Shown: piece after piece, positions 12,632-26,119 of the stretch
Position numbering within the stretch: the stretch's first letter is position 1
Layout: every line of letters begins with the position of its first letter
NCBI RefSeq assembly: GCF_021375795.1
Contig: NZ_JAEIOI010000001.1
Coordinates: forward strand, 248,001 to 312,000
Direction of reading: 5' to 3'
Source: Pseudomonas anguilliseptica
Lineage (GTDB): Bacteria > Pseudomonadota > Gammaproteobacteria > Pseudomonadales > Pseudomonadaceae
DNA: 64,000 bases
Made by a program: the position numbers and the translations under genes
The notes under the pieces: model-generated
The model's database searches: none
Seen by the model: the letters and a program-made list of their open reading frames with translations, nothing else
What the model was told of the DNA's origin: nothing

Positions 12632-13351
12632 TCAAGGGCAGATCATCCGCCCGCCGCCGGTGCATTGATCTTCGTCGTCCACCGCTGCGCTCTGCATGCG
12701 TACCGTGGCTTCGGAGGTGACGATAAAGCCGGCGCGGCTGCGGCAGACGTCCGCATAGTTGGTACTGGTACGACGTGACACATCCTGGAAACTGGCGGAA
12801 GCCCGGCCTGTATTCTTGCGGTCGACAAATTGCGAGGTCGAGCTGAGTAGCCTGTCGACGATTGGAACGATCAGCCTCATGCAGTACTGCACGCGAATTT
12901 TCAGCAGGTTGGCGTCCTGGATCGATACCGGGTTCTGCTGCATCGGGCGGTACATCAGGTTGTCGTTGGGGATCGCGTCATAGGCGTTGCCGTCACCGAG
13001 CGGGTCATCCTGTTCTATCGCCCAGGCCCCGAACGCTGCGCTGTCAGGACTGACACGGGTGATCAGCAGGAAGTTGTCGATTTCCTCGGCCGTATGATCC
13101 AGACGCTGCTCTTCATCCTGAATCTGGGAAAACATCGGGTACATGCCACGCACCAGGCCACGGCGCATGTCGGCGTACTGGGCGTTATTCATCGCACCGA
13201 TACGCGCCGCCTGAAAGGTGGCGTAGTTCAGGCCGGTTTTGGTCGAGTAAATAAAGGCAGCCTGCACGGCCCCGAAAATCAGCAGGATCAGCACCGGGAT
13301 GATGATCAGGAATTCGGTCATTGCTTGTGCAGCTTGCCCGCGCCGTTTCAT
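12632..13351 (-). CDS. TadE-like pilus assembly protein
   Basis: A 239-residue protein with the short basic leader MKRRGQAAQAMTEFLI and a single hydrophobic helix (about residues 12-33), the TadE/TadF minor pseudopilin layout. The QAMTEF segment matches the class III prepilin cleavage region with the conserved Glu. The rest is predicted periplasmic and has three cysteines near the C-terminus (YADVCRS, DQCTGG, MICP) that could form disulfides. It is the last gene of the 13-gene Tad operon, 1 bp downstream of the TPR gene. Role inferred: minor pilin needed for Flp assembly. Confidence 0.82.
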   Translation of the reverse strand: MKRRGQAAQAMTEFLIIIPVLILLIFGAVQAAFIYSTKTGLNYATFQAARIGAMNNAQYADMRRGLVRGMYPMFSQIQDEEQRLDHTAEEIDNFLLITRVSPDSAAFGAWAIEQDDPLGDGNAYDAIPNDNLMYRPMQQNPVSIQDANLLKIRVQYCMRLIVPIVDRLLSSTSQFVDRKNTGRASASFQDVSRRTSTNYADVCRSRAGFIVTSEATVRMQSAAVDDEDQCTGGGRMICP

Positions 13352-13352
13352 T

Positions 13353-13802
13353 TCAAGGCTCCTGCTCGGCGTCGCGGCCGGGTTGCTCCATCACGTCGAG
13401 CAGGCGCTTGCCCAGTGCCAGGGCGCGGTCGGCCTGGGGCTGTTGCGGGTTGAGGGTGCTCTGCATCTCGGTAGCGGTGAACAGTGCTTCGCGCAGTTGC
13501 AGCTGCAGCAGGTTATGCCAGGCGCGTGCGTGCTGGCGGTCGCGCAGCAGTGCTTCGCGGTAGCTGTTGATCGCGCCCTGAACATCGCCCTGGCGGGCTA
13601 GGCTGTTACCAAGCTGGTAACGCACGCCGGCATCGGCCGGCATGGCCTTGGCCAGACGGCGATATTGCTCGCCAGCCTCAACGAAGCGGCCGTTGGCGTA
13701 GTCCTGATTGGCGGCATTCTGCAGGGCCAGCAAATCGGATTGCGGCAGGCCGGCGCAGCCTGACAACAGCAGGCTGGCGAGGGCGAGGCTCAGGATGCGC
13801 AT
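13353..13802 (-). CDS. tadD: TadD-like TPR lipoprotein
   Basis: A 149-residue lipoprotein: signal peptide with lipobox LLSGC (Cys16), then tetratricopeptide helices (NGRFVEAGEQYRRLAKAMPA, QGDVQGAINSYREALLRD). TadD proteins are outer-membrane lipoproteins with TPRs that act like pilotins or assembly factors for the Tad secretin. It is shorter than many TadD proteins. It overlaps the DUF192 gene by 13 bp and is followed directly by the TadE gene. Assignment to TadD rests on family features plus position. Confidence 0.75.
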   Translation of the reverse strand: MRILSLALASLLLSGCAGLPQSDLLALQNAANQDYANGRFVEAGEQYRRLAKAMPADAGVRYQLGNSLARQGDVQGAINSYREALLRDRQHARAWHNLLQLQLREALFTATEMQSTLNPQQPQADRALALGKRLLDVMEQPGRDAEQEP

Positions 13803-14134
13803 TTAAGACTGTCTCCGGGTTCTATGTGCAGGCGTTGGCATTCGCCGGCGCTCAGTTCAACCACGCTACGGGCGCGCCAGCAGGCACTGAAGCGCCAGGG
13901 GCGCAGGTTATGGCGTATCGCGATAATGCGCTGTTCGGCGTCTAGATAAAGTACGTCGATGGCAAAGCGCATAAAACAGCAGTGTACCGAGTTGCAAGGG
14001 CTGATCCACAAACCGTGGGTTGCCGGCAGGCTACGTCGCCCGAGCAGGCCGCGCAGGCGCGTCCAGGGCGTTGCCGCCGACTCCAACTGCAACGGCGTGA
14101 CTCCGCCAGCCTGGTGGATAAGCTGGCTGTTCAC
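13790..14134 (-). CDS. DUF192 family protein
   Basis: A 114-residue protein with the DUF192 pattern: TRLRGLLGRRSLP, then GLWISPCNSVHCCFMRFAID, VLYLDAEQRIIAI, and a C-terminal VVELSAGECQRLHIEPGD. The function of the family is unknown; many members are exported, but this one has no signal peptide. It overlaps tadC by 4 bp and the TPR gene by 13 bp, so it is a translationally coupled part of the pilus operon. A role in pilus biogenesis is only an inference from position. Confidence 0.8.
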   Translation of the reverse strand: MNSQLIHQAGGVTPLQLESAATPWTRLRGLLGRRSLPATHGLWISPCNSVHCCFMRFAIDVLYLDAEQRIIAIRHNLRPWRFSACWRARSVVELSAGECQRLHIEPGDSLKCAS

Positions 14135-15009
14135 GTCTGGCCCATAAACTTGACCACAATCGGGAAGAGCAGAATCACGAAGGTCAGCGGGAAGATAAAC
14201 ATGATCAGCGGGATGACCAGTTTTACCGGTGCCTGCATGGCGGTTTTCTCGGCCCGTTGGAAGCGTTCTTCGAGGCGCTGCTCAGCCTGGATCTTCAAGG
14301 TGGTGCGCAGGCTGCTGCCCATCTTTTCCGCCTGGATCACCGAGCGTACGAAGGTGCTGACATCCTTGAGGTTGACGCGTTGTTCCAGGCGCGTAAGGGC
14401 CTCGGCACGCGGCAGACCGGAACGGATGTCGCGCAGGACGATGCGAAACTCATTCTTCATCGCGCCATCCGGGCCTTTATCCACGGCCTGCTGCAAGGCG
14501 CCAAGAAAGTTCAGGCCGGCGTCCACGCACATGGTCAGGTATTCGAGAAATACCGGCAGGTTGCGGATGATGTCACGGTCGCGGCGCTTGTGTGTGTCGC
14601 TGATCCACATCATCGGCAGCGCCGCACCCATGACCAGCATAACCAGCAGCACTGGCCAGATGATGCCGCTCTTGCCAGTGGCCATGGGCAGCGCGGCGGC
14701 GAGTGGGAAGAGGATCGCCAGGGTGATGCACAGGGCGAGAAAGTCCTCGGCAGTCAGCACATAGAGTGCACCGGTCTTCTGCAGCTTCAGGTCGAGCTTG
14801 TCCATCTGCTGGGGCGGCACGTTGCTGCAGAAGAAATGGCTGATCAGGCGTACCAGCGGCCAGATAGGGCGCACCCAACTGGGTACCGGATCCATATAGG
14901 CGCGGTTTTCCTCGGGCACCAGCGTCAGCAGCCAGATAAACAACAGCAGTGAGCAGCTGACGGCAATCCCCAGGCCGGCGCTGCTGAGTAGGGCGAGTAG
15001 TTCAGTCAT
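14131..15009 (-). CDS. tadC: TadC, inner-membrane pilus platform protein
   Basis: A 292-residue polytopic protein of the type II secretion F (GspF/TadC) family. The conserved cytoplasmic core reads RNLPVFLEYLTMCVDAGLNF and ALQQAVDKGPDGAMKNEFRI, with hydrophobic helices at the N-terminus (about 5-25), mid-region (about 95-135) and C-terminus (about 265-288). With TadB it forms the inner-membrane platform on which TadA acts. Its ATG overlaps the stop of tadB by 4 bp. Confidence 0.93.
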   Translation of the reverse strand: MTELLALLSSAGLGIAVSCSLLLFIWLLTLVPEENRAYMDPVPSWVRPIWPLVRLISHFFCSNVPPQQMDKLDLKLQKTGALYVLTAEDFLALCITLAILFPLAAALPMATGKSGIIWPVLLVMLVMGAALPMMWISDTHKRRDRDIIRNLPVFLEYLTMCVDAGLNFLGALQQAVDKGPDGAMKNEFRIVLRDIRSGLPRAEALTRLEQRVNLKDVSTFVRSVIQAEKMGSSLRTTLKIQAEQRLEERFQRAEKTAMQAPVKLVIPLIMFIFPLTFVILLFPIVVKFMGQT

Positions 15010-15863
15010 GCGTCAATCCGGGTAATGCGTCTGATGGACATAAAGCCGAGCACTTCCATCACCACCATCACGGTCAGCACCATCAGGCCGTTGCGGGTGG
15101 TGTAGAGCTGGCTCATGGCCTCCGGCTCAATGGCGCTGAGGATGCCGGCGAGAAACACCGGCAGCAGCGCCATAAAGGTGCCCTGGGCGCGGCCCTGGGC
15201 GGTCAGGCTGTCGATCTTGCCTTCCATGATGCGTTTGCGGCGCAGCATGGCCGCCATGCCATTGATGGTTTCCACCAGGTTGCCACCGACCTCACGGCTG
15301 ATACGGATCGCCGAGCTGGCCATGATGAAGGAGGGCAGCGGGATGCGTTTCTCCAGCTTAAGCAGGGCATCTTCCAGGGTGACCCCGAGGCGGATGTTCT
15401 TGATCAGCAGGCCGAACTCCTGCGACAGCGGAGCCGGCGACTGCTGCACCACGTTCTCCAGCGCCATATTCAGGCTGGCCCCCGATTGCAGGCTGCTGGA
15501 AAGCAGCATAAAGGCATCGGGCAACTGCTCTTCGAACTTCTGCAAGCGCGCCTTGGTCATCTGTTTAAGGATCAGCCGTGGCACGAATACCGCCACTATC
15601 GCGCCGGCGATGGTCAGCACGAGGATCTGGAACAGCACATGCAAGAACAGCGGGATCAGCACCAGCAGCATCAGGTTGAGGATGAACAGCTGGCGGCCGT
15701 TAGCGAAGATGAACATATCGGCCATCTCAATCTCGGCATTGCGCGAGAACTGCTTGCGATAGAAACCGAAAAAGTCCGAAACGCGGTCGGCCAACAGCAC
15801 GGCGGCAATCCCCACCGCCGCGCCAAGGGCCGCGATACAGCCGATCAGGAGCAGGTCGCTCAT
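15006..15863 (-). CDS. tadB: TadB, inner-membrane pilus platform protein
   Basis: A 285-residue F-family platform protein paralogous to TadC. The cytoplasmic core EEQLPDAFMLLSSSLQSGASLNMALENV is characteristic, followed by IPLPSFIMASSAIRISREVGGNLVETI. Hydrophobic helices are at about 5-25, 55-95 and 225-275. It overlaps tadA and tadC by 4 bp each, the tight arrangement typical of tad loci. It probably couples the TadA motor to pilin insertion. Confidence 0.93.
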   Translation of the reverse strand: MSDLLLIGCIAALGAAVGIAAVLLADRVSDFFGFYRKQFSRNAEIEMADMFIFANGRQLFILNLMLLVLIPLFLHVLFQILVLTIAGAIVAVFVPRLILKQMTKARLQKFEEQLPDAFMLLSSSLQSGASLNMALENVVQQSPAPLSQEFGLLIKNIRLGVTLEDALLKLEKRIPLPSFIMASSAIRISREVGGNLVETINGMAAMLRRKRIMEGKIDSLTAQGRAQGTFMALLPVFLAGILSAIEPEAMSQLYTTRNGLMVLTVMVVMEVLGFMSIRRITRIDA

Positions 15864-17518
15864 GAGTCCATCCTTGGGCGGAAGATGTCCAGGTTGACCG
15901 GAATGCCGCGTTTGGCCAGGGCCTCGTAGAACTCCGGTACCTGACCCGTGGCGTGGAACTGGCCTTTGACCCGGCCGTTCTCGTCGAAACCGTTCTGCTG
16001 GAAGCGGAAGATTTCGTTGAGCTGGATGGTGGCCTGCTCCATGCCGGTGATTTCACTGATGCTGGTGATGCGCCGTGAACCGTCGCCGAAACGGGTTTGC
16101 TGCACGATCAGTTGTACCGCCGAAGCGATCTGCTCACGGATCGCCTGTACCGGCAGGTCCATACCGGCCATCAGCACCATCACCTCCAGACGGCGCAGCA
16201 TGTCGCGTGGGCTGTTGGCGTGGCCGGTGGTCAGCGAGCCGTCGTGACCGGTGTTCATCGCCTGCAGCATGTCCAGTGCTTCGCCACCACGGCACTCGCC
16301 GACCACGATGCGGTCGGGGCGCATCCGCAGGCAGTTGCGCACCAGGTCGCGGATGGTCACATGGCCTTTGCCTTCCATGTTCGCCGGGCGCGCTTCCAGC
16401 GCTACCACGTGGGGTTGCACCAGCTTCAGTTCGGCGGCGTCTTCCACCGTTACCACGCGCTCTTCAACCGGGATAAAGTTGGAGAGGATGTTCAGCAGTG
16501 TGGTTTTGCCTGAGCCGGTACCACCACTCACCACGATATTCAGACGTTGCTCTACCGCCGTACGCAGAAACTCGACCATTTGCGGGTTGATGGTGCCGAA
16601 GCCGATCAGATCGTCGGTGGTCAGCTTTTTTTCCGAGAATTTACGAATGGTCAGGCACGGCCCACGCAACGCCAGTGGCGGGATGATGGCGTTGACCCGC
16701 GAGCCATCCTTGAGGCGCGCGTCGACCATCGGTGAGCTTTCGTCGATGCGCCGGCCCAGCGGCGAGATGATCCGCTCAATGGTCGAGAGCACTGCGGCGT
16801 TGGAGCTGAAGTTGATCGGTGTTTTCTCCAGCCGGCCGGCGCGCTCGACGTAGATGTCGTTGTGCGCGTTGACCATGATTTCGCTGACGGTTTTGTCGGC
16901 GATCAGGTCCTCCAGCGGGCCAAGGCCGATGGCTTCATCCAGTACGATCTTGCGCAGTGTTTCGGTATTCAGGGCTGGTAGGCGACCACCGACCTGCTGG
17001 AGGATTTCATCGATCAACCCGGACAGGGTGCTGCGTACCTGCTCGTGGTCCATGCTGTCGAGGTTCATCCGGCGCAGGTCGAGGGCACGGAACAGCTCGC
17101 CCTGAATGAACTGCGCCCACTCCATATAAGCCTGATCGTGGCCTTGCTTCTCGGCCGGAGCCTCCAAGTCTTCCAGCTCCGGTACCAGCGGTGCCAGGCT
17201 GTCGGCTTCGTCGTTCTGCTGAGTGTTCAGGGCGCGCACACGCACCAGATAGCCGCCGATGGCAATTGCATCTTCGGGGGTCAGTGGGCCATGGCGCGAC
17301 ACCGGACGTTCGTTGACCAGCACCTCGTAGCCACGGCTGACGTCTTCGACAAACAGTCCGGCCAGGGAGTGTTCGATGCGAGCATGCACCGGTGCGATCT
17401 TCCAGCCGCGCAGGCGGATCAGCCCGCCGCGCGCCTTGCCCAGCTCACAGTAGGCGCTGGTGCAGGTGAGCTTTTCCAGCGGTTTGCCGTCGCGATAAGT
17501 GACTTCAATCTCGAACAT
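15860..17518 (-). CDS. tadA: TadA/CpaF ATPase with N-terminal FHA-like domain
   Basis: A 552-residue secretion ATPase powering Tad pilus extension and perhaps retraction. The C-terminal part has Walker A SGGTGSGKTTLL (about residue 330), the Asp box GECRGGEALDMLQAMNTGHD, and the His-containing TTGHANSPRDMLRRLE. Residues 1-100 form an extra domain with an FHA-like strand pattern: LGKARGGLIRLRGWKIAPVH, VEDVSRGYEVLVNERPV, then AIAIGGYLVRV. The usual GR and SxxH phosphothreonine-binding residues are altered, so binding may be lost. CpaF ATPases usually lack this domain, and no tadZ is present here. It may therefore replace TadZ as a localisation module. It sits 7 bp downstream of the secretin gene. 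Confidence 0.93.
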   Translation of the reverse strand: MFEIEVTYRDGKPLEKLTCTSAYCELGKARGGLIRLRGWKIAPVHARIEHSLAGLFVEDVSRGYEVLVNERPVSRHGPLTPEDAIAIGGYLVRVRALNTQQNDEADSLAPLVPELEDLEAPAEKQGHDQAYMEWAQFIQGELFRALDLRRMNLDSMDHEQVRSTLSGLIDEILQQVGGRLPALNTETLRKIVLDEAIGLGPLEDLIADKTVSEIMVNAHNDIYVERAGRLEKTPINFSSNAAVLSTIERIISPLGRRIDESSPMVDARLKDGSRVNAIIPPLALRGPCLTIRKFSEKKLTTDDLIGFGTINPQMVEFLRTAVEQRLNIVVSGGTGSGKTTLLNILSNFIPVEERVVTVEDAAELKLVQPHVVALEARPANMEGKGHVTIRDLVRNCLRMRPDRIVVGECRGGEALDMLQAMNTGHDGSLTTGHANSPRDMLRRLEVMVLMAGMDLPVQAIREQIASAVQLIVQQTRFGDGSRRITSISEITGMEQATIQLNEIFRFQQNGFDENGRVKGQFHATGQVPEFYEALAKRGIPVNLDIFRPRMDS

Positions 17519-17525
17519 GTTGGCC

Positions 17526-19076
17526 TCAGTCGATCAGCTCAATGGCACCGGCTTTTTCCTGGTAGCGCTTGAGCAGTTCGTCATTACGCTGCAGCTCCTG
17601 GGCGTTGATCGAGTCCGGGGCGGCGGTCATCAGGCGCGGGGTGATAAAGATCACCAGTTCGGTGCGTTTGTCCGTGCCGGAGTCGCTGCCGAACAGGCGG
17701 CCGATCCAGGGCATCTCACGTAGCAGCGGGATACCCTGATTAGCGTAGGCGTTTTCCGTGGTAATCAGGCCAGACAGCACCAGGGTTTCGCCCAGGCGCA
17801 GTTGCACGTCGTTCTCGGTGCGGCGGGTCTTGAAGGCCGGGTAGCCGCTGACCTGGTTAGCCATGTCCACCTGGCTGATTTCGGCGGAAACCTTGGTGGA
17901 AATCTGCTCGTTGCCGTAGACCTTGGGCTCGATATTGAGCATCACCCCGTAGTCCTTGTACTCCACCGAAGGACCGCTGATGCTGCTGGTAACCACCGGT
18001 GTTTGCCCGCCGACAGTCAGTTGTGCCTTGCCGCCGCTGCGTGCGGACAGCCGTGGGGAGGCCAGGGTCAGTGCCGCGCCGTCCTTTTCCAGCAGGTTGA
18101 TACGCGAGGTGATTTCGGTGGCTATACCCCAGTAGCCCACAGTACCCAGCGCGAATTTCTCCGAATTGGCAGCCAGTCCCGAGACTGCCAGGCCGGTGGT
18201 TTTGTCGACAGCGGGAGGCAGGCTATTGATGGGGCTAAGCGTAGAGTTGGTCGAGGGGAACTGGCCACGGAAGTATTTGTTATTACGCTGGTCAGAGGCG
18301 AGCGACCAACTTGGGCCATTGATCTGGTCATCCCAGATAATGCCCAGGCTTTCGGTGTAGTCCTTGGAGAACTCGGTCACGCGCACATCGAAATAAACCA
18401 TCGGCGCGTCGTATTCGGAGGTCGGCTGGGCCAGCACCATGACGTCCGGGTAGCTCTGCTTGACCACCTCGATGCGCGTCATGTCTACCGCGTCGAGGCT
18501 GCCGTCGATGACGATCTGCCGGCCGACGGCCTTGATGCTGATGCCGGGGATATTGCCGAGCATGGCTTGTACCTCGCTCAGCACTTCGAGGGCGTCGGAC
18601 TTGCTGGCCGCGCCTTGCTGCTCCTCGGCGAGGACAATCACGTTGTCGCCATAAGGCTTGGCTGCGTCCTTGATCTGCACCAGTTGCGTGGCACTGACCC
18701 GTCCTTCGATCACCACCTGGCGGCCTACCGTACGCAGGCGTGCACCGGGAATGCTGCTCAGCAAGGCGCGCAGTTCCGGCAACTGGCGATAGCCGTTCGC
18801 TTTGGCCACCACCACGCTCATCTGCTCGCGGCTGCCATCCTCGAACCAGATCAGCATGGTGGTTTCGCCATCCTGCTGGGCAGTGAGAACGATTTCCTCG
18901 TTTTTCAGCAGAGTGGCGCTGATCAGCTCGACATTGCCCACTGCCACGCGCTCGACCCCCGGCGCCTTGAGCACCCGTACATCGCCATCGTAGAGCAGCA
19001 GTGCGGTGGGAAGTACGTTGGCCTGAGCGGCAAAGCTCAGGCACAGGGTTGCCAGCATTCCTACTAAAAATCGCAT
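17526..19076 (-). CDS. rcpA: RcpA/CpaC outer-membrane secretin
   Basis: A 516-residue secretin forming the outer-membrane pore for the Flp pilus. It begins with a signal peptide (MRFLVGMLATLCLSFAAQA). The N-terminal domain has the CpaC pattern GDVRVLKAPGVERVAVGNVE. Two BON-like segments follow (RQVVIEGRVSATQL and RQIVIDGSLDAVDM), and then the secretin core with GQTPVV..., VEYKDYGVMLNIEPKVYG and a C-terminal RLGETLVLSGLI...RTELVIFITPRL. Length fits RcpA/CpaC. It is 87 bp downstream of rcpC in the operon. Confidence 0.95.
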   Translation of the reverse strand: MRFLVGMLATLCLSFAAQANVLPTALLLYDGDVRVLKAPGVERVAVGNVELISATLLKNEEIVLTAQQDGETTMLIWFEDGSREQMSVVVAKANGYRQLPELRALLSSIPGARLRTVGRQVVIEGRVSATQLVQIKDAAKPYGDNVIVLAEEQQGAASKSDALEVLSEVQAMLGNIPGISIKAVGRQIVIDGSLDAVDMTRIEVVKQSYPDVMVLAQPTSEYDAPMVYFDVRVTEFSKDYTESLGIIWDDQINGPSWSLASDQRNNKYFRGQFPSTNSTLSPINSLPPAVDKTTGLAVSGLAANSEKFALGTVGYWGIATEITSRINLLEKDGAALTLASPRLSARSGGKAQLTVGGQTPVVTSSISGPSVEYKDYGVMLNIEPKVYGNEQISTKVSAEISQVDMANQVSGYPAFKTRRTENDVQLRLGETLVLSGLITTENAYANQGIPLLREMPWIGRLFGSDSGTDKRTELVIFITPRLMTAAPDSINAQELQRNDELLKRYQEKAGAIELID

Positions 19077-19163
19077 CGTGTCCCGCCCTGATCTGTACGA
19101 ATTTGTCTTGTTATGGTTTTGTCCGCCCCTTATCCGGCTGGAAGAGGGGCAGCGGGGAAGTGC

Positions 19164-21062
19164 TTATTCCAGCCGCAGTGTCTGGATGGGCAGCACACCC
19201 TGTTTGCCGGTACCGCCGGGGATAAACTGGATCATCCGCGTGGTATCGCGGCGAGTCGCGCTGACGGGTGTATCCCTTGGGGTTTCCACGCCGATGCTGA
19301 CGCCACGAGCCAGCACGTTGCCGTTGTTGTCCACCACTTTGCCGTCGACCACCTTGCCGATGGCTTTGCCGGACGCATCGTAGACGGTGTCTCCACGTAC
19401 TGTACCGAGTACCTTGCCGGATGCATCGCGCACCACTTGCTGGGCATCCTGGCGCAGCCCGACGTCGGCATCGGCCTTGAGGTTGCCGGCCAGGTCGTAA
19501 ACCTTGCCGTCGCGCACGGTGCCGACCTTGCGACCCTGGCTATCGATCACGTCGTTGCCGACAATACTGCCGAGCACATTGCCGTTGGCGTCACGCGCCA
19601 CCAGTACTGCGTCGGCCATTGGCTTGCCATCGCTGTCGAGTACGGCCTGTTCGGCTTTGCCCAGTACCTTGCCGTCACTGCCGATGGCCACGCCGTCCTT
19701 GACCGTACCGAGCACCTTGCCGTTGGCATCAATCAGTTGGCCGTCCTTGACGGTACCGAGTACCTTGCCGTTGGCATCCCGGACGATTTCCCCCGGTGCA
19801 CCAATCACCTTGCCGCTGGCATCGACCAGTTTGCCGTCAACCAGTTTGCCGCTGACATCACTGCTGGCGCCTGCAACGCTTGAGCTGCTCATGTCGATCA
19901 CTCGGCCGTTGGCATCCAGAGCGACATTCTGTTCAACCCGGCCCAGTTCCTTACCATCGAGGCCGACGGCTTTGCCGTCCTGGTAAGCACCGATGACATT
20001 GCCCTGGGCGTCGACTACCTTGCCGTCGACTACCTTGCCGATAACGTTGCCATCAGCATCACGTACCACGGTGGCGCGTTCGCTCATGCGCAGTAACGGG
20101 TCGTCGGTAGCCAGGCCGCGAACGATACGGCCCATGACTTTGCCATCGAGGCCGATGGCCTGGCCGTCGATAATCTGGCCGATGATGCGGCCCCGCTCAT
20201 CCACCACGTTGTTACCGACGATGCGGCCGAGCAACTTGCCGTCGGCACCCAGCACCACGTCGACGGTTTCTGCCGGTAGTGGGTCGAGCAGGCTGGAAAC
20301 GGTGACCTGACCCAACTCGGCAGCGCTGCTGTCTTTCGGGTGGCGCAGCACGGCGACCAGTTCGCCGGCTTTTTCCGCCAGCTCCACACGAGCGACCTGT
20401 GCCGGGGTGAGCATCAGCGACAGAGTAGAGAAGTTCATGTTGAAGCCGTCAGGTGTGCTGCGGTCGTGGTAGTTCTCGTACTTGCGACCTTTGGCGTCTT
20501 CGCGGCCGGCAGCGAGCACCTCGACATCTTGCAGAACGTTGATCACTACTTCGTCGGAGTAATTGGTTTGCTCCTGCAGGCCGATATCGGTGGCCGAAAA
20601 AGTGCCGAGTAGGTCGATGCGGTCGCCAGGGCGCAACATGCCATCGAAGGAGTTGATCTTGCTGACTTTGACGGTCTTGACCCGCTTGCCCAGCGCGACG
20701 TTTTCCGAGAAGCGCGACACGCCGTCCTGTTCCACCGAGTCCCAGCTCAGGGGGCGGCCTTTCTGCAGGTCGCGAATGGTCAGGCGGTTTTCCAACTGTG
20801 CCCAATCATCGGCCAGCACGGCATTGGAGGGCAGGTAGTCGCGTGGAACGTCCATGATTGCCACGTTTTCCGGGGTCAGCGGCTGGGCCTTGGCGATGTC
20901 GGTCTTGGGGACGATCACCGATACCTTTACCTCGTTGGCCGGCTGATAGGCCGCACGGTACTGCGATTCCTTGGCTTTCAGGTACAGCCAGCCGAGCAGT
21001 GCGGCGAGCACTCCGCAGGCGATGGCGATGATCAGTAGTTTTTTTCCCGAAACGGATGACAT
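19164..21062 (-). CDS. rcpC: RcpC/CpaB protein with long repeat domain
   Basis: A 632-residue protein. One N-terminal helix (KLLIIAIACGVLAALLGWLY) is followed by SAF-type domain segments (VPKTDIAKAQPLTPENVAIM, RDLQKGRPL) and an RcpC/CpaB core (residues 40-260: RVKTVKVSKI..., LRPGDRIDLLGTF). From about residue 265 to 590 there are about 18 tandem units of a 16-residue motif, consensus DxxGKVLGxVxDGxVV, as in DANGKVLGTVKDGQLI. Ordinary CpaB proteins are about 250-350 residues, so the repeat half is an addition. RcpC acts in the periplasm with the secretin. An upstream ATG at 21080 is in frame; ATG 21062 is chosen for its GGGGAG five bases upstream. Confidence 0.88.
   Translation of the reverse strand: MSSVSGKKLLIIAIACGVLAALLGWLYLKAKESQYRAAYQPANEVKVSVIVPKTDIAKAQPLTPENVAIMDVPRDYLPSNAVLADDWAQLENRLTIRDLQKGRPLSWDSVEQDGVSRFSENVALGKRVKTVKVSKINSFDGMLRPGDRIDLLGTFSATDIGLQEQTNYSDEVVINVLQDVEVLAAGREDAKGRKYENYHDRSTPDGFNMNFSTLSLMLTPAQVARVELAEKAGELVAVLRHPKDSSAAELGQVTVSSLLDPLPAETVDVVLGADGKLLGRIVGNNVVDERGRIIGQIIDGQAIGLDGKVMGRIVRGLATDDPLLRMSERATVVRDADGNVIGKVVDGKVVDAQGNVIGAYQDGKAVGLDGKELGRVEQNVALDANGRVIDMSSSSVAGASSDVSGKLVDGKLVDASGKVIGAPGEIVRDANGKVLGTVKDGQLIDANGKVLGTVKDGVAIGSDGKVLGKAEQAVLDSDGKPMADAVLVARDANGNVLGSIVGNDVIDSQGRKVGTVRDGKVYDLAGNLKADADVGLRQDAQQVVRDASGKVLGTVRGDTVYDASGKAIGKVVDGKVVDNNGNVLARGVSIGVETPRDTPVSATRRDTTRMIQFIPGGTGKQGVLPIQTLRLE
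19305..20265 (-). repeat. Tandem coding repeats of 16 residues (48 bp) in rcpC
   Basis: The DNA encoding the C-terminal half of RcpC is built from degenerate 48-bp units. The best-preserved pair is at 19693-19730 and 19741-19778: 36 of 38 bases agree at exactly 48 bp spacing. Others have diverged and carry insertions. The pattern points to expansion by tandem duplication. Confidence 0.85.
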
Positions 21063-21085
21063 GTTGCTCCCCAATCCCATGAATG

Positions 21086-21099
21086 CCCCATTTGGGGTT
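21086..21099. other. Short palindrome before rcpC
   Basis: CCCCATTTGGGG (21087-21098) is an inverted repeat just upstream of the chosen rcpC start, in the 104-bp gap after the pilin-like gene. It could stabilise the 3' end of the upstream message or shape the rcpC leader. It has no T-run on the coding strand. Confidence 0.3.
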
Positions 21100-21166
21100 T
21101 CAGTTTATTATTCGCTGCCTCAATGCCGCGTCTTGTTGTTTCAGCCGTCTATTGCTGCCAGCGGCC

Positions 21167-22198
21167 TTACTTGCTTAACGTCCATTTGCTGGTAACGGGG
21201 TCGTAGGTCACGGTGGTTTTGCCTTTGCAGTCCTGGCTGTCGTCGACCCCATTGACGAACCCGCCCACGCCTTGTTGCCCGCCGTTACTCAGGCGCAAGG
21301 ACGGGTCGTTGAACTTGCTCTCCGGAACGCCACTGAGAATGTCGCCATTGTTGAGCGTGTCGCTCCAGCCCCCGGGCATCACCAGACATGGCGAATAGTT
21401 TTTCCAGTTGCTGTTTGGCATGAGGACAAACTCCACGCTTACCAGCTCCTCGTCTTCGTTGCCCACTTCATTGGTGAATGTGGACGGGGCGGTAAGCGTG
21501 CTCTTGAGCGAGTAGAGGCGACCGTTCAATTCATAGCTGGAGGTCTGCGGTACGCCGTTGTCATCCAGTGTCACGATGCGGCGCATCGGCGCAGCGGTAA
21601 ATCCTGTGGGTTGCGGGTCGAGCAGTTTGCGGTCGTTGGCGGAATAGAACTTGTTCTTGTACAGGTAGGCGAAGCCGTAGACCTTGCCGCCGGCGGTGAG
21701 CGCCATCAGTGGCAACTCGTTGCCATTTTCGTCGACCCACTGGCGGTTGCTTGTGGCGCCGCCATAGATGATGTTGCCGGCCCCGTCGACGAATACGCAG
21801 TCGCCGCTATCGGTGCGTCGGCACCAGGCGAGGATATTGCCGTTGTCGTCAACCAGCATGTCGCCGTCCATGCGTCCGAGCAGATCACCGTTCTGGTCGT
21901 AGACCCATTCGATGGAGGGAAGCTGTGCGTCGACGTCCGGCAGTTCGGTATCACCTGGCGCTGGGGTTTCGCCGTCGTCGTAGTCGCCTTCTTCGGAGTC
22001 GTTCTCGTTGAAGCGCACCTTGGTGTTGTTATAGCGCTGCACCTTGTTCATTTCGCTGGACTGGGTGCGGTAGTTGTTGTGCACATTGTCGAACAGCTGC
22101 GTGACATCAGTAGTCGCAGCCAGCAGCGCCACGCCAGTGACACCGAGTACCACCATGTACTCGGTCATGGATTGGCCCAGCTGGCGCAGGCGACTCAT
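21167..22198 (-). CDS. Pilin-like protein with RcpC-type repeats
   Basis: A 343-residue protein. The N-terminus MSRLRQLGQSMTEYMVVLGV is a class III prepilin leader: basic residues, G/Q cleavage region, conserved Glu-Tyr and a hydrophobic helix to about residue 30. After an acidic stretch (NENDSEEGDYDDGE) come units resembling the RcpC repeats: YDQNGDLLGRMDGDMLV, DDNGNILAW, VDGAGNIIYGG and VDENGNEL. The C-terminal 130 residues match nothing I recognise. It lies directly upstream of rcpC and overlaps the preceding gene by one base. It could be a large minor pilin or adhesin. Function is not known. Confidence 0.8.
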   Translation of the reverse strand: MSRLRQLGQSMTEYMVVLGVTGVALLAATTDVTQLFDNVHNNYRTQSSEMNKVQRYNNTKVRFNENDSEEGDYDDGETPAPGDTELPDVDAQLPSIEWVYDQNGDLLGRMDGDMLVDDNGNILAWCRRTDSGDCVFVDGAGNIIYGGATSNRQWVDENGNELPLMALTAGGKVYGFAYLYKNKFYSANDRKLLDPQPTGFTAAPMRRIVTLDDNGVPQTSSYELNGRLYSLKSTLTAPSTFTNEVGNEDEELVSVEFVLMPNSNWKNYSPCLVMPGGWSDTLNNGDILSGVPESKFNDPSLRLSNGGQQGVGGFVNGVDDSQDCKGKTTVTYDPVTSKWTLSK

Positions 22199-25858: not shown

Positions 25859-26119
25859 TTAGCGTGTCGACTCATCCTGCTGGAAGTTGCTTAGAGTATG
25901 GTTGGTAGCTGCAGCGCTTTGGGCGGCTTGGCCTCGAGCTTCGGCCGTTGACTGTGCGGTACCGCCGCCCAGTTCGGCGGCCATATCGCCTACCTGATCG
26001 CGTACTGTGCTACCGAACAGGTTGTAAACGACGATGGCGGCAATGGCGATCAGGGCGACGATGATGATGTATTCGGTCATGCCTTGGCCTAACTGACGAG
26101 CGCGCGATTTGATGGACAT
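25859..26119 (-). CDS. flp: Flp-type major pilin
   Basis: An 86-residue prepilin, MSIKSRARQLGQGMTEYIII..., with a basic 11-residue leader, cleavage expected before QGMTEY (Glu at +5, Tyr at +6), and the hydrophobic stretch IIVALIAIAAIVVYNLFG. The C-terminal tail is small, Ala/Gln/Thr-rich and charged. It is the first gene of the operon, with AGAGGAAG before the ATG. Its size and motif make it the likely major pilin subunit. No prepilin peptidase (TadV) gene is in the window, so processing must come from elsewhere. Confidence 0.93.
   Translation of the reverse strand: MSIKSRARQLGQGMTEYIIIVALIAIAAIVVYNLFGSTVRDQVGDMAAELGGGTAQSTAEARGQAAQSAAATNHTLSNFQQDESTR

Follow-up and report, generated by a model that had tools for sequence, protein, structure and literature searches.

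RcpC of Pseudomonas aeruginosa is a close described relative of the protein considered here, a CpaB/RcpC encoded in a Tad pilus operon within a 64,000-nucleotide stretch of Pseudomonas anguilliseptica DNA (contig NZ_JAEIOI010000001.1, positions 248,001 to 312,000 of the forward strand; hereafter the window). RcpC is a dodecamer of 303-residue chains with a single transmembrane helix and a poorly resolved linker, L3, its C-terminal hairpin being required both for binding the N-domain of the RcpA secretin and for function (PMC12307814). The linkage between membranes in Tad systems differs by species, with RcpC contacting the secretin directly in P. aeruginosa and CpaI proposed as a bridge in Caulobacter (PMC13170226). 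The beta-flower fold (Durairaj 2023, PMC10584680) is known from predicted models and is given there without a known function, its beta-hairpins being arranged in shallow barrels of four-, five- or sixfold symmetry, belonging to the Tubby clan and carrying a semiconserved [DNEQ]xxG at the hairpin tip. The member described first consists of one domain of 96 residues (PMC10584680).

The window CpaB carries, in the place of linker L3, about 320 residues of beta-flower repeats. On balance, this array is probably a folded periplasmic spacer in the Tad pilus conduit, with the D2 ring domain on one side of it and a conserved C-terminal tail on the other. Both CpaB and the beta-flower are already known, and what appears to be new is the inserted-array combination together with its parallel in DotG/VirB10-like proteins. 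In the open literature, searched by titles and the beginnings of abstracts and with most subscription papers outside its reach, no description of a beta-flower CpaB or of the secretion-system parallel was found.

Beta-flower array between D2 and the tail

The NCBIfam profile TIGR03177 names the 638-residue protein CpaB (122 bits, cut-off 71), the only CpaB match in the window's genome. Features in common with P. aeruginosa RcpC (PDB 9gzr) include this family profile, the SAF domain or D1, the D2 domain, the N-terminal helix and a gene next to that of the secretin in a Tad operon, with the C-terminal hairpin possibly shared as well. The D2 fold is identified by alignment of residues 123-262 of the predicted model to residues 119-267 of 9gzr chain A (Z 9.4, root-mean-square deviation 4.2, 107 aligned positions, next entry Z 4.2), and Foldseek matches the CpaB model to 9gzr_B with an E-value of 7.3e-06 and a probability of 1.00. 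Along the protein, the D2 match runs to residue 262, the array begins at residue 278, and the conserved last 25 or so residues follow; the array is an insert between D2 and this tail, not the end of the protein. Within the short segment bridging D2 and the array, LLDP is invariant in all nine aligned rows, as is IQFIPGGTG within the tail.

An earlier note, made from the sequence of the window, had described about 18 tandem 16-residue repeats at 19305-20265, and the array found here agrees with it in number, in approximate position and in consensus, DADGKVLGKVVDGKVV. The DNA identity given there, 36 of 38 bases between 19693-19730 and 19741-19778, is exact. One of its statements requires correction: an ordinary CpaB does not end soon after SAF, since in the solved RcpC D1 and D2 are followed by a linker and a terminal hairpin (PMC12307814). 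In the window CpaB, the repeats are likewise followed by the conserved tail.

Self-comparison of residues 256-610 gives a top shift of 16 residues, with an identity of 0.23 where 200 shuffles give 0.095 (z 8.4), and lesser shifts of 47 (z 5.2), 12 (3.9) and 31 (2.6). An iterative position-weight matrix, with the unit threshold set at the 95th percentile of shuffle maxima (7.6), finds 18 units in residues 278-599, whereas at the same threshold no unit appears in any of the window's 247 remaining stop-to-stop frames that reach 100 residues. The matrix was trained on the window CpaB itself, so the count of 18 is descriptive, and independent support comes from Pfam. Whole-protein scores reach 91.6 bits for Bflower_2 (PF21785; cut-off 38, E 3.8e-26) and 79.5 bits for Bflower (PF21784; cut-off 25, E 3.2e-22), with DUF3659 overlapping the array at 48 bits (cut-off 24.8); these matches put the repeats in the beta-flower families, which the earlier note could not see. 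Asp and Gly are abundant in the units, 13 of the 18 bearing the DxxG turn and the other five starting with G, while the fourth column is G in 17. Resemblance to the PF21784 and PF21785 families rests on scores above the curated cut-offs, DxxG turns of the tip type and predicted beta-hairpins; the difference from the first described member is that a protein of a pilus machine here contains 18 units in an array.

Structure prediction yields a row of beta-hairpins, as the earlier note had supposed in calling the repeat probably beta-structured, rather than a disordered region. AlphaFold2, run with nine orthologues, gives hairpin after hairpin throughout residues 272-600, and residues 263-638 folded alone reproduce the pattern, with a mean predicted local distance difference test score (pLDDT) of 75.9 and a predicted template modelling score (pTM) of 0.51. 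The pLDDT of the array hairpins lies mostly between 70 and 90, dipping around residues 403-407, and the sole helix predicted within the array is four residues long. By eye, the array divides into roughly five or six modules, each holding three or four units, and one module is truncated in the window CpaB. The periplasmic placement of the repeats is supported by homology.

Searches of solved structures contributed little on the array. By sequence, neither a relative of the array nor RcpC was returned, the only matches being FlgA (0.033) and an unrelated polymerase (0.36). When the array was searched by fold on its own, no PDB entry matched with E below 0.001, Z not exceeding 4.1 (sialidases), and there were three viral matches below 0.001 with probabilities of at most 0.20; such uninformative searches do not show the fold to be new. 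Peptidoglycan-binding, RHS and MORN readings were rejected, none of these being matched in the window CpaB (Pfam, E 0.1), including the RHS/YD family PF05593 at that level. Foldseek also paired the full model with 4igl_B, an RHS-repeat protein (E 2.8e-04, probability 0.15, TM score 0.06), a match that was not trusted. PRC-barrel (PF05239) reaches a total of 21.4 bits in CpaB against a cut-off of 21.2, with no single stretch passing alone.

Conservation, occurrence and length of the array

A tree of the D1-D2 region was built from 46 rows, after removal of near-copies, of most ordinary CpaBs from Pseudomonas and of some order-level rows. The 17 long CpaBs form a single clade in it (support 100/100), the nearest neighbours of which are unsure because of long branches. 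In comparisons of the window CpaB with four orthologues, the ratio of nonsynonymous to synonymous substitution (dN/dS) is 0.13-0.26 in the array and 0.07-0.17 in D1-D2, values that are rough because synonymous divergence (dS) in the array is high, about 0.7-1.4 between orthologues. Across eight orthologues, units at equal positions share 58-82% identity, against 30-33% at different positions. To judge from these comparisons, the array is under purifying selection. The outcome that the earlier note named as refuting its reading, a disordered region whose repeats are not conserved, was therefore not observed.

The variability of the stretch after D2 among repeat-less CpaBs, together with the loss or gain of blocks in the array, would suit a neutral expansion of repeats in a tolerant linker, without function. 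That explanation is highly improbable in view of purifying selection, the low dN/dS and the position-by-position conservation of units across species both opposing it. Of the 153 unit pairs, just three have a DNA identity above 72%, with a maximum of 81%, and the array is carried by every one of the clade's 17 long rows, although these rows were selected as long. Recent DNA slippage was likewise rejected, with Tandem Repeats Finder reporting a lone array of 15 bases in 2.1 copies in 17000-22000 and with the units conserved position by position.

The array version is rare among Pseudomonas. RcpC is matched in 222 of 298 Pseudomonas genomes, of which at least nine, the window's own among them, hold CpaB open frames of 636-720 residues, and in all nine the window CpaB matches through to its end; other Pseudomonas RcpC frames among the matches listed span 239-363 residues. 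A tenth Pseudomonas genome, G680 from the phylum sample, encodes a 685-residue CpaB. In the phylum sample, RcpC is matched in 166 of 398 genomes, with frames of 252-396 residues among the matches listed, save one of 539 residues (G633), the length of which reflects upstream read-through; a 472-residue frame in G417 has an RcpC match below cut-off. Weaker unlisted RcpC matches in both samples were inspected only in part. Beta-flower matches occur in seven genomes of the phylum sample: three with long CpaBs (G000, G301, G680), three with other beta-flower proteins (G544, G357, G626, the latter two with signal-peptide-like starts by eye) and one, G438, with a VgrG-like protein under cut-off. The idea that beta-flowers are confined to envelope machines is wrong, given the other beta-flower proteins in G544, G357 and G626.

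Measured from the conserved start, the long CpaBs of Pseudomonas range from 575 to 685 residues, most of them 632-685, and the longest CpaB with an array, of 826 residues, belongs to a different family within the order (genome G1118). Comparison of the orthologues shows an array whose length varies by blocks while its ends are retained; by eye, the array of P. guineae lacks one module. A strict ruler, in which module number would make the machine as tall as the periplasm is wide, could draw on whole-protein lengths spanning 575 to 826 residues with both ends kept. It is nonetheless quite improbable, most Pseudomonas versions falling within the narrower range and most of the CpaBs surveyed lacking an array.

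The C-terminal tail and the role of the array

A CpaB docking tail would be expected to pair with the T2SS-T3SS_pil_N N-domain that the adjacent secretin possesses at residues 25-90 (PF13629). Repeat-less CpaBs of the same order often end in tails of the type IEFIIGGQ or FEVIRGGKRS, and 22 of 27 such order-level CpaBs fit a tail pattern (L113, L130, L135, L136 and L139 being dropped). Exclusion of gapped tails (L115, L122, L132) and near-copies (L121, L123, L124), with L019 added, left 17 ungapped tails for a motif, chosen by a pattern composed after the window tail was known. This motif peaks at residues 613-624 of the window CpaB with a score reached by 12 of 2000 shuffles, and the tail is the top motif position in all 14 long Pseudomonas-clade CpaBs scored, the window included and some being near-copies.

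Ordinary Pseudomonas CpaBs frequently have a Pro/Ala-rich stretch after D2. In the window CpaB, the beta-flower string would replace the flexible linker of ordinary CpaBs between the anchored D2 ring and the tail. With about twelve CpaB copies per ring, by analogy with P. aeruginosa RcpC, a palisade of twelve strings would space the ring from the secretin while keeping the tail within reach of it, the strings lining or bracing the path of the pilus across the periplasm and the tail completing the sheet of the secretin N-domain. The earlier note had also imagined the repeat extending through or around the secretin; were the tail to dock on the N-domain of the secretin, a docking itself putative, passage of the array through the secretin would be unlikely. 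As for its suggestion of a ruler, the position of the array and its variation in length would fit a spacer or a ruler, the mechanical role being one that we infer.

The Asp- and Gly-rich composition of the units would also suit a binding module, in which the DxxG tips or the flower channel bind a lipid, glycan, peptidoglycan, calcium or the filament and so hold the machine. This alternative is rather unlikely. The array has a single four-residue helix, unlike the helix-filled beta-flowers that have been described, and a spacer suits the data better because the ends stay while the length varies. The peptidoglycan variant, raised in the earlier note, is without support here, since no peptidoglycan-binding Pfam family matched in CpaB at E 0.1.

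Several observations weigh against the array being a spacer that ends in a docking tail, in addition to the high dS described above. In the models, D2 is poorly predicted, with block means of pLDDT at about 37-62, and the last 36 residues fall to about 28-42 in both the full and the array-plus-tail prediction, the pTM of the latter being 0.51. Length differences between orthologues correspond to blocks of about 45-55 residues rather than clean multiples of 16, and small proteins unrelated to envelope machines also have beta-flowers. The 17-tail motif is biased by its pattern having been written with the window tail already seen, and in the 826-residue CpaB the tail ranks second for it (7.2 against 7.5). 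A pattern-free test was performed because the motif pattern postdated sight of the window tail, taking the best local match on the window CpaB for the last 40 residues of each repeat-less CpaB. Six of 27 order-level tails land in residues 600-638 (shuffle mean 2.6, six or more in 7 of 200), along with just one of 35 repeat-less CpaBs from Pseudomonas, and a hidden Markov model from 31 tails (28 of them from Pseudomonas) missed the window tail. Confidence in the spacer is lowered because this test supports the tail link only slightly; identity of the tail with the docking hairpin of CpaB is more likely than not but weakly supported, the likeness being weak and mixed.

Operon context and parallel arrays in DotG/VirB10-like proteins

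The CpaB gene belongs to a Tad operon that also encodes the secretin, an ATPase and platform proteins (Table 1). In the secretin, extra residues lie between the N-domain and the secretin domain, including two related-looking segments, PGARLRTVGRQVVIEGRV and PGISIKAVGRQIVIDGSL, noted by eye. The gene after the secretin in G1118 has a start that resembles that of the window ATPase, again by eye, and a similar DUF192 protein appears to adjoin the P. guineae operon. The small open reading frame with the motif G/QGMTEYIIIVALIAIAAIVVYNLF is likely the major Flp pilin of the operon.

The prepilin-like protein shows by eye one or two beta-flower-like units near residues 99-130, its Bflower match (E 0.018, 15.9 bits) lying under the cut-off of 25 and its one matrix unit (6.0) under the threshold of 7.6. 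In its G1118 counterpart (L140:1598-2665), one unit does exceed the matrix threshold. The prepilin-like protein and CpaB, parts of the same machine, may share a beta-flower module.

Table 1. Features of the CpaB gene and its neighbours, in window coordinates
Feature	Position	Strand	Basis
DUF192 protein, between TadC-like and TadE-like (12632-13351) genes	13790-14134	minus	81.6 bits
TadC-like platform protein, named by order	14131..15009	minus	T2SSF 73.9 bits
TadB-like platform protein, named by order	15006..15863	minus	T2SSF 58 bits
TadA/CpaF-like ATPase, N-terminal FHA-like domain	15860..17518	minus	T2SSE 217.8 bits; FHA 20.5, just below cut-off 20.7
RcpA/CpaC-like secretin	17526..19076	minus	Secretin 133.2 bits; T2SS-T3SS_pil_N 42.1 bits, cut-off 23
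CpaB/RcpC with beta-flower array, 638 residues	19164..21080	minus	Open reading frame; TIGR03177; SAF, RcpC, Bflower_2 and Bflower Pfam matches
Conserved C-terminal tail, residues 614-638, possibly secretin-docking CpaB hairpin	19167..19241	minus	IQFIPGGTG conservation
18 sixteen-residue beta-flower units, residues 278-599	19284..20249	minus	Pfam, self-comparison, weight matrix, predicted hairpins
Residues 263-270 (SLLDPLPA)	20271..20294	minus	Directly after the part matching RcpC up to its residue 267 (L3/alpha-7)
RcpC domain / D2 ring domain, residues 123-246	20343..20714	minus	PF16976 61.5 bits, cut-off 28.8
SAF domain, residues 55-117, D1 by position	20730..20918	minus	PF08666 34.3 bits, cut-off 21
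N-terminal helix, residues 12-44, inner-membrane anchor by homology	20949..21047	minus	Helix in model, low pLDDT
Prepilin-like protein, 343 residues, motif G/QSMTEY, large C-terminal region	21167..22198	minus	Open reading frame
Small open reading frame, about 86 residues (start inferred)	about 25859-26119	minus	Motif

Beyond Tad systems, Bflower_2 occurs in six of 274 Gammaproteobacteria genomes, the window's own and five others, all five (L091-L095) encoding DotG/IcmE homologues in which an N-terminal anchor is followed by a beta-flower array. The TrbI domain is over cut-off in the four that have a long frame, the fifth being a 244-residue frame that stops inside the repeats at the end of its locus. 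These homologues score 77-338 bits against NF033900, under the cut-off of 750 for this 1008-position model, and a sequence search of solved structures finds Legionella pneumophila IcmE for both of the two tried. An alphaproteobacterial protein of 2308 residues (L011:4914-11837) follows the same plan with a ComB10/VirB10-like end, its 97 loosely matched units forming the longest such array in this analysis. Over-generalisation should be avoided, as RHS (PF05593) is over cut-off in the repeats of four of the six DotG/VirB10-like proteins scanned.

The window CpaB resembles the DotG/IcmE and VirB10/ComB10-like proteins in that a membrane anchor precedes a beta-flower array at a comparable place. 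It differs in the host protein, theirs being an unrelated component of type IV secretion, and in the TrbI domain, not matched in the window CpaB (Pfam, E 0.1); in L. pneumophila DotG, this domain sits in the outer-membrane dome (PMC8486379). Repeats in an envelope-spanning VirB10-like protein are also known from L. pneumophila DotG, whose pentapeptide repeats have been suggested to lie in the stalk (PMC7511231), and from Helicobacter pylori CagY, a VirB10-like protein with a repeat region, the repeats being alpha-helical according to the title of a reference (PMC9371333). Both differ from the CpaB array in repeat type.

A broader proposal, put forward tentatively and still doubtful, is that beta-flower arrays are an exchangeable periplasmic spacer of unrelated envelope-spanning machines, acquired separately by Tad rings and by DotG and VirB10/ComB10-like proteins, in each case between the membrane anchor and the part that docks at the outer membrane, with module number tuning the reach or stiffness of the conduit. 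If true, this would be the first function for the beta-flower fold. The presence of an array after a pilus ring domain, and again in DotG/VirB10-like proteins, provides a concrete, testable idea of beta-flower function and bears on how the inner- and outer-membrane parts of Tad systems connect.
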